Of a stretch of 41,117 bases of DNA, positions 2,083-4,852 are shown piece by piece. Location: the NCBI GenBank assembly GCA_024638445.1, contig JAHEKH010000016.1:1-41117 (forward strand), in the 5' to 3' direction. The position numbers and the translations under genes were made by a program. Source of the DNA: Gammaproteobacteria bacterium (GTDB lineage Bacteria; Pseudomonadota; Gammaproteobacteria; Steroidobacterales; JABDKV01). A model generated the notes under the pieces. It did no database searches, was not told where the DNA came from, and worked only from the letters and a program-made list of their open reading frames with translations. Position 1 is the stretch's first letter. Every line of letters begins with the position of its first letter.

Positions 2083-3396
2083 TTATCCGAGGTGCGGCCG
2101 GGTGAGGTTTTCGTGCCCCGATGCCGTTATGTACACATCGTCCTCGATCCGCACGCCGCCATAGGGCCGGAACCGCTCGACCGCATCCCAGTCGACGCCT
2201 GCAGCGGAGTCCGACCCGCGAAGCTCTGCCAGCAGCATGTCGATGAAATAAACGCCCGGTTCGATCGTGCAGACCGCGCGCGGCGTGAGCGTACGGGTCA
2301 GCCGGAGAAAGGGATGCGCCTGTGGCGGCGGCTGCACCTCGCCGGCCGGGCTGGCCTGGTGGCCGCCGACGTCGTGTACCTGGGTGCCGATGTAGTGCCC
2401 CAGCCCGTGTGGGAAAAAGGTGCCGACGATCCCGCGCTCGACTGCAGTTTCCGCGCTGCAGGTCAGTACGCCATGGTCCACCAATACAGCCGCCATGCGC
2501 CGGTTCGCCTCCAGGTGCAGGTCCACGTAGTCGACACCCGGCGCGGCGAGATCGCAGATCTCCAGCTGTGCCGCATTCACCGAGCCGATAAGCCCTGCAA
2601 AGTCGTCCTCTTCGGCCGAGTAGGTGCGGGTAATGTCCGCGGCATAGCCGTTGCAGGAGGCACCGGCGTCGATCAGGAAAGCCCGTGGTGTGTCGCGCCG
2701 GTCTTCGTAAGCATGGTAATGAAGTACAGCGCCGTGGCCGTTCAGCGCGATGATGTTGTCGTAGGGAAGTTCGGCAGGCGTCTGCCCGCAGGCGCGGCAA
2801 TACTCCAGGTGTATGTCGAACTCGGAGCCGCCGTCGCGAAAGACTCGCTCCGCAGCCAGGTGGCCGCGCGCGGCGATCGCGTTGGCGCGTCGCATGCACT
2901 CCACCTCGTAGTCTGTCTTCGCGGCGCGCTCGAAGTGCAGGATGTCGATCAGCGACTTCGGATTGACCTCGCCAAGGGCCGCCAGGCCTTCCGGAAGCGC
3001 TTCCCCGATGATCGCGACGTTTCCGGCCAGGTCCGCCAGTGCTGCAACGACTTCGTCGTCGCTGCGCACGATTTCTACTTCGAAATGTTCCGTCCAGTAG
3101 CCGGCCGGGTCCTGCGGTGGCAGGTGCCAGTAGTCGCGCGGCTGCAGGTAGATCAGCCGCGGTGTTTCGCCGCTGCCGGCCACGACGGCGCAGCCGGGAT
3201 GTTCGGTCAGCGGCACCCAGCACTTGAAGTGGGGGTTTGCCTCGAAACTGCAAAGGCGGTCATCGAGAAACTGTGGGTGCGGCTGGCCGGAATAGACAAT
3301 GACCCGGTCGAAGCCGCTAACCGCCAGCGCCTCGTCGTGGCGCGTGCGCAGGGTGCGTTGATGGGCGGCAAAGAGTCCGGCAATCGGGTCAGTCAT
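2083..3396 (-). CDS. pepQ: Xaa-Pro dipeptidase (prolidase)
   Basis: Cytoplasmic metallopeptidase that cleaves dipeptides with a C-terminal proline. The 437-residue length is close to E. coli PepQ (443). The C-terminal pita-bread metal site is visible in order: LIDAGASCNGYAADITRTY supplies the two Asp ligands, HGLGHYIGTQVHDVGG the His, CTIEPGVYF a Glu and GVRIEDDVYI the last Glu. The N-terminal creatinase-like domain begins MTDPIAGLFAAHQ. The ATG has a GGGGGA Shine-Dalgarno-like run upstream. It stands alone: 126 nt separate it from the cyclase gene and it is not obviously co-transcribed with the riboswitch gene behind it. The large plus-strand ORF 2092-3426 is its shadow. Confidence 0.93.
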   Translation of the reverse strand: MTDPIAGLFAAHQRTLRTRHDEALAVSGFDRVIVYSGQPHPQFLDDRLCSFEANPHFKCWVPLTEHPGCAVVAGSGETPRLIYLQPRDYWHLPPQDPAGYWTEHFEVEIVRSDDEVVAALADLAGNVAIIGEALPEGLAALGEVNPKSLIDILHFERAAKTDYEVECMRRANAIAARGHLAAERVFRDGGSEFDIHLEYCRACGQTPAELPYDNIIALNGHGAVLHYHAYEDRRDTPRAFLIDAGASCNGYAADITRTYSAEEDDFAGLIGSVNAAQLEICDLAAPGVDYVDLHLEANRRMAAVLVDHGVLTCSAETAVERGIVGTFFPHGLGHYIGTQVHDVGGHQASPAGEVQPPPQAHPFLRLTRTLTPRAVCTIEPGVYFIDMLLAELRGSDSAAGVDWDAVERFRPYGGVRIEDDVYITASGHENLTRPHLG

Positions 3397-3459: not shown

Positions 3460-3879
3460 TCAGATTGCGTTGTAGCTTACGTAGATCTTGAAGTTCAGCT
3501 CGAAGAAGCACTTCTGCTGGCCAACATTAGAGGCGTCGCGCCAGCCCTGGCAAACACGGCGTCCGGTGATTTCGTTACGCCCTTCGTTAACGGCATTGAT
3601 GATCTCTTCCTGCAGGTCGAAGCCGCCGTCTACACAGTCGACGTTTTTACAGCGGAAGTGAAAGTAGGCACGTGACTGAGGACCAAAGCTCCGGTTGTTG
3701 AGACTCGGTTCGATCTCGTTGTCCTGGCCGCGAATCGACAGGTTTACCGCAAGATGCCGCACGCCGGGCAGCACATCTGCGATCGTGTTGGATTCGACCA
3801 GGTTGCCCATACCACAAGTCTCGGTGGCCTCGGCAGGCTGATCTGATTCCTGTTTACGCTTTTTGAATATGCTGAACAT
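3460..3879 (-). CDS. Unknown Cys-containing small protein under a c-di-GMP riboswitch
   Basis: I do not recognise this 139-residue protein. It begins MFSIFKKRKQE. I chose this ATG over the ORF-track start (3918) because AGGAAACAGGA precedes it and because the track start lies inside the terminator hairpin. There is no signal peptide or membrane segment. The C-terminal half has CKNVDC followed by VCQGW and KCFFELNF, which could form a zinc site or disulfides, and GGFDLQEEI resembles a small ribbon-type fold. Its leader holds, in order, a CRP-type promoter, a class I c-di-GMP riboswitch and an intrinsic terminator. Expression is therefore probably set by c-di-GMP. Roles in surface attachment, motility or envelope would be typical of riboswitch targets, but none is shown by the sequence. 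Confidence 0.8.
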   Translation of the reverse strand: MFSIFKKRKQESDQPAEATETCGMGNLVESNTIADVLPGVRHLAVNLSIRGQDNEIEPSLNNRSFGPQSRAYFHFRCKNVDCVDGGFDLQEEIINAVNEGRNEITGRRVCQGWRDASNVGQQKCFFELNFKIYVSYNAI

Positions 3880-3894
3880 TGTCCTGTTTCCTGC

Positions 3895-3928
3895 AAAAAA
3901 CTGACGGCCCGGTGACATGCACCGGGCC
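3895..3928 (-). terminator. Intrinsic terminator in the riboswitch leader (expression platform)
   Basis: On the minus strand GGCCCGGTG pairs with CACCGGGCC (9 bp, 5-nt loop; plus 3906-3928). Five nt later comes a run of six T, then the ribosome binding site and ATG of the downstream gene. The stem lies between the aptamer and the coding region, as expected for transcriptional control. The aptamer contains CACCGGTCCC (plus 4069-4078), nearly the same as the 3' arm, so it could capture the 5' arm and act as an antiterminator. That alternative pairing is inference. Confidence 0.8.
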
Positions 3929-4030
3929 CGCCGGTCGGGTCAGGGGATTGTCACGCAAGGGAAGGACGTTGCCTGTGACGAGTCGCACATAAGTGGGACA
4001 GCATCGCTTGAGCGGATGCGACTCGTTGTC

Positions 4031-4120
4031 GTGGCAGCTCCGCTGTCCGGCCGGCTGGCGCCTGGCTTGGGACCGGTGGCTTTGCGTCCCCGCCTCTCGG
4101 TGGGTTTGCCCTGGTCACGC
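4031..4120 (-). promoter_or_regulatory. Class I cyclic-di-GMP riboswitch (GEMM-I)
   Basis: Read on the minus strand, the hallmark segments appear in order: CCAGGGCAAACCC, a stem capped by the GNRA loop GAGA, then GGGGACGCAAAGCCACCGG, and further on AGCGGAGCTGCC. These match the conserved GGGCAAACC, GGGACGCAAAGCC and AGCGGRGYU-CC segments of the Vc2-type class I c-di-GMP aptamer. The first stem is CCCaCC/GGcGGG with one A-C mismatch. The element is the leader of the unknown gene at 3460-3879. It is separated from the PEP-CTERM-type gene by that gene's own terminator. A further 9-bp stem (plus 3979-3987 with 4017-4025) lies between aptamer and terminator. Confidence 0.93.
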
Positions 4121-4148
4121 GCGTCAGTGCGACGCGTTGTGGAGTGTA

Positions 4149-4191
4149 GTTATACGTCATGCAATGATGCATTGCGGTGATCGCAATCACA
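4149..4191 (-). promoter_or_regulatory. CRP-type box and -10 element driving the riboswitch transcript
   Basis: On the minus strand TGTGA-TTGCGA-TCACC (plus 4176-4191) is a 9/10 CRP half-site match. Exactly 21 nt later comes TATAAC (4154-4149), a good -10. The predicted start near 4142 is about 20 nt before the aptamer, so promoter and riboswitch fit as one unit. No good -35 is present, as expected for class II activation. A second inverted repeat, GCAATG-atg-CATTGC (4161-4175), lies between box and -10 and could be a further operator. Confidence 0.72.
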
Positions 4192-4205: not shown

Positions 4206-4231
4206 AAAAAAGCCGCATCTGACGATGCGGC
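4206..4231 (-). terminator. Intrinsic terminator after the PEP-CTERM-type gene
   Basis: GCCGCATC (4212-4219) pairs with GATGCGGC (4224-4231) around a 4-nt loop. On the minus strand it is followed directly by six T (plus 4206-4211). It lies 24 nt after the stop of the 4256-4852 gene and insulates the riboswitch unit from it. The plus-strand side ends in CTTTTATT, so it may work weakly in both directions. Confidence 0.88.
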
Positions 4232-4255
4232 CTTTTATTGTCTAATTAGACGCTC

Positions 4256-4852
4256 TTAGCTGCGGCGGCGCAGCAGCCCGAGACCCATCAGGCCCGAGGC
4301 AAACAGCAGCAGCGGAGCCGGGATCGGCACCTGCGCGCTGAAGGCGATATCGATACCGATGCCGTTGGCTTCGTCACCGGCCCAGCCGTAAAGGCTGAGC
4401 TTGCCGTTTTCGAGAGTCGATGAGTTGAACGGCGAGTTGCCGTAGCTCGCTTCGGCGAAAGTAAAGGTGCCCGCGAAGGAACCGTCCATCGGCCCGCCGG
4501 TTACATCCATCGTGTAATCCAGGGTGCCACCGGCAAAACCGTTGGCGCCGCTGAGGTCGAAGCTGGCGCTGAGCAGGGTGAACGTCGCGGTCGCGCCGTT
4601 ATCGCTGGTCAGGTTGTATTCCTGCGGTCCGCCCGCAGAAAGAATGGAACCGGTGAGATCGAGCATAATCGTCTGGCCCGGGTCCCAGCGCAGGAAGTCG
4701 GCGGGCGCTGTATTGCCCGGCGTGGCGCTGTCATGCACCAGGGTCCAGCGGTTGCTGTCGAGGAACGTCCCGATCAATGTCGCCGCGTTCGCGCTGAGCG
4801 TGAACAGCGAAAGCGTTGCAACTGCCGCGAGGCGAATCATAAAGGTCTTCAT
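4256..4852 (-). CDS. PEP-CTERM-type exosortase-sorted secreted protein
   Basis: A 198-residue secreted protein of unknown specific role. It has a signal peptide (about residues 1-23, ending SANA) and a C-terminal tripartite sorting signal: VPIPAP, a hydrophobic helix LLLFASGLMGLGLL, then RRRS. This is the VPLPA-type variant of PEP-CTERM, recognised and cleaved by an exosortase in bacteria that make exopolysaccharide. The mature part is Gly, Thr and Ser rich with few charges and probably beta-rich. The ATG follows AAGGGAT. The gene ends in its own terminator. No exosortase or polysaccharide gene is in this window, so the sorting machinery must be elsewhere. The 239 nt upstream show no promoter I would defend. 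Confidence 0.85.
   Translation of the reverse strand: MKTFMIRLAAVATLSLFTLSANAATLIGTFLDSNRWTLVHDSATPGNTAPADFLRWDPGQTIMLDLTGSILSAGGPQEYNLTSDNGATATFTLLSASFDLSGANGFAGGTLDYTMDVTGGPMDGSFAGTFTFAEASYGNSPFNSSTLENGKLSLYGWAGDEANGIGIDIAFSAQVPIPAPLLLFASGLMGLGLLRRRS

Follow-up and report, generated by a model that had tools for sequence, protein, structure and literature searches.

A CRP-type promoter and a class I c-di-GMP aptamer precede an undescribed four-cysteine protein gene in uncultured gammaproteobacteria

The window analysed here is a whole contig of 41,117 bases from a draft genome that is 82% complete, and all window coordinates given below are on its minus strand. Between a gene for a PEP-CTERM-like secreted protein (4256-4852) and pepQ, encoding an Xaa-Pro dipeptidase (2083-3396), a CRP-type box, a -10 hexamer, a c-di-GMP aptamer, a hairpin with a T6 run, a ribosome binding site and a 139-residue open reading frame follow one another, every piece lying where a preliminary description of this DNA had put it. 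An intrinsic terminator of the PEP-CTERM-like gene, recognized by its sequence (4206-4232), sets that gene apart from the riboswitch unit, and the same hairpin and T run precede the CRP box at four related loci (L005-L008). The PEP-CTERM-like gene is the upstream neighbour of the aptamer unit in the family; it was seen only where the aptamer occurs and is missing at the same locus in the aptamer-less L029 and L030. A Shine-Dalgarno sequence, AGGA (3882-3885), precedes the target gene (3460-3879), and pepQ, a conserved neighbour that starts 63 bp downstream, may be co-transcribed with it. It may also have a promoter of its own. A TATCAT hexamer at 3427-3422, shortly before pepQ, recurs in the family's genomes, and in L029 and L030 a terminator-like hairpin and its T run lie between a TATCAT or TATGAT hexamer and pepQ.

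The promoter proposed in the preliminary description was borne out. The CRP-type operator TGTGATTGCGATCACC (4176-4191; box TGTGATTGCGATCAC, 4191-4177) is centred 29 nt from the -10 hexamer TATAAC (4149-4154), such that transcription would start near 4142 and the operator would be centred at about -41.5, the class II position. Three matches to the box occur in the window against 0.25 expected. The operator is conserved in L005-L011, with the same placement and a near-identical sequence in the orthologues, and the 29-nt spacing recurs wherever a -10 is recognisable (the window, L006-L008, L010 and L011); in L005 and L009 the box is present and the hexamer at exactly that spacing is poor. The genome encodes a protein that matches the CRP equivalog NF008732 with 324 bits (cut-off 266). 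A TGTGA-N6-TCACA-like box at -41.5 together with an encoded CRP describes a class II CRP-dependent promoter, at which binding itself is predicted. Further downstream, a gene for a dCache-GGDEF diguanylate cyclase (276-1955) has a CRP-type box of its own (TGTGACACAGGTCAC, 2032-2018), so active CRP might increase the target mRNA and c-di-GMP alike, which would form an incoherent loop. As a candidate conserved partner the cyclase gene was rejected: it is adjacent in G000 and G003 alone, and the stretches from G001 and G002 do not show it there.

The aptamer (4029-4120) matches the Rfam family RF01051 (c-di-GMP-I, also called GEMM-I) at 4120-4030 with 47.5 bits, above the gathering score of 35 and with an E-value of 2.3e-6 over 41 kb and 4227 families, confirming the class I assignment made earlier. 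Its sequence and architecture are those of the family. The segments AGGGCAAAC and GACGCAAAGCC align with the RF01051 consensus at the ligand-contacting G20 and the stacking A47 (numbered as in Vc2), and the window and all related aptamers shown have G and A, respectively, at these positions. P2 carries a GNRA tetraloop, which is GAGA in the window, L005 and L007 and GAAA in L006. Unlike the consensus, the window's P3 has a degenerate receptor side for this tetraloop (CCAAG...CGG in place of CUAAG...UAUG in the alignment), a receptor that is common in the class and not universal. This degeneracy fits the modest score, which compares with 75-90 bits for many aptamers of the order (the class occurs in 105 of 147 genomes), and it might lower affinity. 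The canonical G20 and A47 argue for c-di-GMP as the ligand rather than cGAMP, and the predicted aptamer would probably bind c-di-GMP in vivo. A cGAMP riboswitch (GEMM-Ib) was rejected because it needs A at position 20, where the window and all orthologues have G; G20A is the change reported to accommodate cGAMP (PMC6274999). We also considered RF03167 (c-di-GMP-I-GGC), a model without the receptor, which these aptamers may lack too, and one that scores them well: L001 and L005-L008, five in all, exceed its threshold, but the window, with 55.3 bits at the same place, stays below the cut-off of 59. Model position 37, the A47 equivalent, is the G of GACGCGAA, whereas every aptamer shown has A there (GACGCAAA or GGCGCAAA), and this identity was rejected.

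The 139-residue target protein (P0001) had been described as having no recognisable family, and sequence, profile and fold searches agreed, returning no relative in Pfam, NCBIfam or the PDB. An AlphaFold2 model built from six sequences (mean pLDDT 75, pTM 0.64) found no convincing match in a fold search (best E-value 0.17, TM 0.26). Ten members share, without exception, four cysteines (77, 82, 110 and 124) and the motif FRCKN-x2-C-x2-GGF, a pattern suggestive of a metal site; any function of the protein is one that we infer. Of 147 relatives, 19 have a homologue, and for ten of these, the window genome among them, the E-value is below 1e-13. A sample of 369 genomes spanning the class gave matches only in the genome of the window and in one more. 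A single-sequence search of genome contigs gave no match; a profile search gave five named MAG records, all of uncultured gammaproteobacteria.

The gene is present in all five genomes of its GTDB family that were examined, and the aptamer lies upstream of it in all five. Within the family, then, the riboswitch stays with the protein. In the other families of the order, a search of about 1.4 kb upstream of the homologues revealed no aptamer. Outside the family the neighbours vary between families and no stable gene partners were found; the order argD-like gene, P0001, pepQ is common to the aptamer-bearing loci and to the aptamer-less L029 and L030. The CRP box also lies upstream of the gene in L009-L011, aptamer-less relatives from two further families, and to judge from these sequences it is older than the association with the aptamer. 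It therefore seems that the aptamer was added to an ancestral CRP promoter in a single family, or else that it was lost from the others.

Four leaders from the genus (the window and L005-L007) can be aligned past the aptamer as far as the start codon, and in L008, a family sister, a shorter and different platform follows the aptamer. Three hairpins in the genus leaders carry one compensatory change each: a 5' hairpin ahead of the aptamer (CGCGTC-GCACT-GACGCG, 4120-4136; U-A to C-G), the conserved hairpin H1 (GAGTCGCA...TGTGCGACTC, 3980-4024) and the GC-rich, 9-bp hairpin H3 (3906-3928). This covariation is thin, since the four sequences are closely related.

H3 is the hairpin that the preliminary description had called a terminator. 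In its model, ligand binding frees the 5' arm of H3 from an antiterminator formed with the aptamer segment CACCGGTCCC, and polymerase then stops at the hairpin and its T6 run. The hairpin and T6 do exist in the window, where H3 is followed by GTCAG and six T residues (3900-3895), and an additional CTGAC:GTCAG pairing, which was seen only when the aptamer was enforced (rising from 0 to 0.13-0.20 at lengths 242-248), would extend the stem to the T run. The near-duplicate on which the antiterminator was founded, CACCGGTCC in the aptamer and CACCGGGCC in the 3' arm of the hairpin, is likewise present in the sequence, but we found no folding support for a role of this repeat: in partition-function folding, the antiterminator had a pairing probability of 0.00 at all eight transcript lengths in four orthologues, and it was rejected. 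The hairpin forms to about 0.9 both with and without the aptamer enforced, which argues against a ligand-dependent terminator. In L005-L007 both arms have been altered in concert, becoming GGCCCGGCG/CGCCGGGC (ACCCGGCG in L007), while the aptamer segment stayed CACCGGTCC; the complementarity between aptamer and hairpin is therefore not maintained. The T run is missing in L005-L007, and in the window, the only leader to have it, it begins five bases past the stem. With an antiterminator probability of 0.00 besides, the leader lacks the marks of an intrinsic-terminator riboswitch. By pattern alone the hairpin and T6 are at chance level, because a simple terminator scan finds 3 such sites in 3.2 kb and 3.1 in shuffled sequences. 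We consider this terminator model decidedly unlikely for the leader, although the window-specific T6 could make the window copy a terminator. That ligand binding turns the gene off is still plausible, though by another route.

That route involves a strand between H1 and H3 (3941-3973, GGCAACGTCC...CCCCTG), which is predicted to pair, when no ligand is bound, with CAGGG...GGGGACG...GCC of the aptamer. The four genus leaders share a predicted helix in which the pocket strand's CAGGG is matched with CCCUG or CUCUGG and its GGGGACG with CGUCC. The pairing probability is about 0.8 at nearly every transcript length (in the window it drops to 0.14-0.49 at two intermediate lengths), and native P2 is at about 0 without ligand; the two folds are mutually exclusive. 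When the part of each leader that follows the aptamer was shuffled, both arms were equally strong in 1, 0, 1 and 1 of 200 sequences for the four leaders. The shuffle means were 0.2-0.55 per arm, indicating that chance pairing between a GC-rich leader and the aptamer is fairly common. Support for the anti-aptamer helix is moderate, since neither arm is as unusual on its own and the leaders are related to one another. Nearest-neighbour energies favour the unbound folds over those with the aptamer enforced by 7-19 kcal/mol, a difference for which ligand, tertiary contacts and kinetics have to compensate.

Enforcing the aptamer clearly lowers the mean unpaired probability of the Shine-Dalgarno region in two leaders, from 0.50 to 0.27 in L006 and from 0.62 to 0.36 in L007. 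The drop is small in L005 (0.38 to 0.33) and almost nil in the window itself (0.51 to 0.48), which, like the divergent platform of L008, speaks against control by this route. From this lower accessibility and the recurrent anti-aptamer helix, we infer both the direction of control (OFF) and its level, and favour a CRP-activated, c-di-GMP-repressed leader that works mainly at translation, a reading to which we give an even chance. Direction is not fixed by the anti-aptamer fold alone, and nearly alike class I aptamers are known to act as ON or OFF switches (PMC9262584). An ON switch, in which c-di-GMP binding raises expression, would have to accommodate the drop in Shine-Dalgarno accessibility in all four orthologues, even if it is only slight in two, and we regard it as unlikely.

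The favoured OFF switch would operate as follows. A cAMP-CRP-type activator would drive the class II promoter, yielding a transcript that starts with the class I aptamer. In the absence of ligand, the downstream strand (GGC-CGUCC ... CCCUG) would capture the pocket strand (CAGGG ... GGGGACG), and this anti-aptamer fold would leave the ribosome-binding region relatively free. With c-di-GMP bound, the aptamer would keep its own strands and release the pyrimidine-rich strand, which could then form base pairs in the direction of the Shine-Dalgarno sequence or serve as a signal for termination, such that output of the four-cysteine protein, and perhaps also of pepQ, would drop. The net logic would be CRP active AND c-di-GMP low. 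Should the released strand serve termination, it might do so through Rho, the ligand freeing a C-rich strand (GUCCUUCCC...CCCCUGACCC) as a loading site instead of blocking the Shine-Dalgarno sequence. In each of the four genus leaders this strand is rich in pyrimidines, and the U-run is not conserved, as such a mechanism would allow, but its basis is purely compositional and we hold it to be highly improbable.

The conservation that follows the aptamer could in part have another source. The palindrome TGTGCGACTCGTCACA (3989-3974) matches the CRP consensus at 9 of 10 positions, is invariant in the four genus members except for one central base, and is followed 29-30 nt downstream by -10-like hexamers (in the window GACAAT, 3952-3947). 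A second CRP-dependent promoter inside the leader would let part of the mRNA escape the riboswitch, and part of the conservation would be that of promoter DNA; this is compatible with the OFF leader. However, the palindrome overlaps the 3' arm of H1, has C instead of A in its left half and is missing in L008, and an internal promoter seems doubtful.

In Cd1 of Clostridioides difficile, an OFF switch, and in Vc2 of V. cholerae, the aptamer has been described as pairing alternatively with downstream strands (PMC9262584), and the window leader resembles them in this respect. Cd1 uses an intrinsic terminator, whereas the leaders studied here have no conserved U-run; in Vc2, which acts translationally, the switching part is described as P1, whereas here P2 and the pocket strands are predicted to be captured. 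The closest likeness in promoter design is gbpA of Vibrio cholerae, where a putative class I c-di-GMP riboswitch, Vc1, lies behind a CRP-activated promoter, and where c-di-GMP inhibits transcription independently of Vc1 (PMC4545359). Both loci place two second messengers on one gene through a CRP promoter and a class I leader, but the gbpA product is a known colonisation factor. By analogy, the caution that a c-di-GMP effect may be independent of the riboswitch applies to the window leader too, and a class I leader that binds its ligand without changing expression is known (PMC11218506).

Because the pairing of CRP with a class I leader and class I aptamers of either direction have precedents (PMC4545359, PMC9262584), the riboswitch is of a known kind, and what is new is its undescribed target: an unannotated, narrowly distributed four-cysteine protein tied to c-di-GMP and CRP signalling through a conserved, testable leader. 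We tentatively suggest, as a possibility short of an even chance, that throughout this family of uncultured gammaproteobacteria an undescribed, possibly metal-binding protein is jointly controlled by CRP and by a class I aptamer that apparently lacks the receptor and carries an anti-aptamer platform, which would make the protein a new c-di-GMP effector.

The same genome has two further c-di-GMP-I aptamers (L033, 1828-1914, and L034, 11676-11755, both on the minus strand), without a clear CRP box. Each precedes a gene for a large lipoprotein, the encoded proteins being of at least 603 and of 714 residues, respectively, with lipobox signals.
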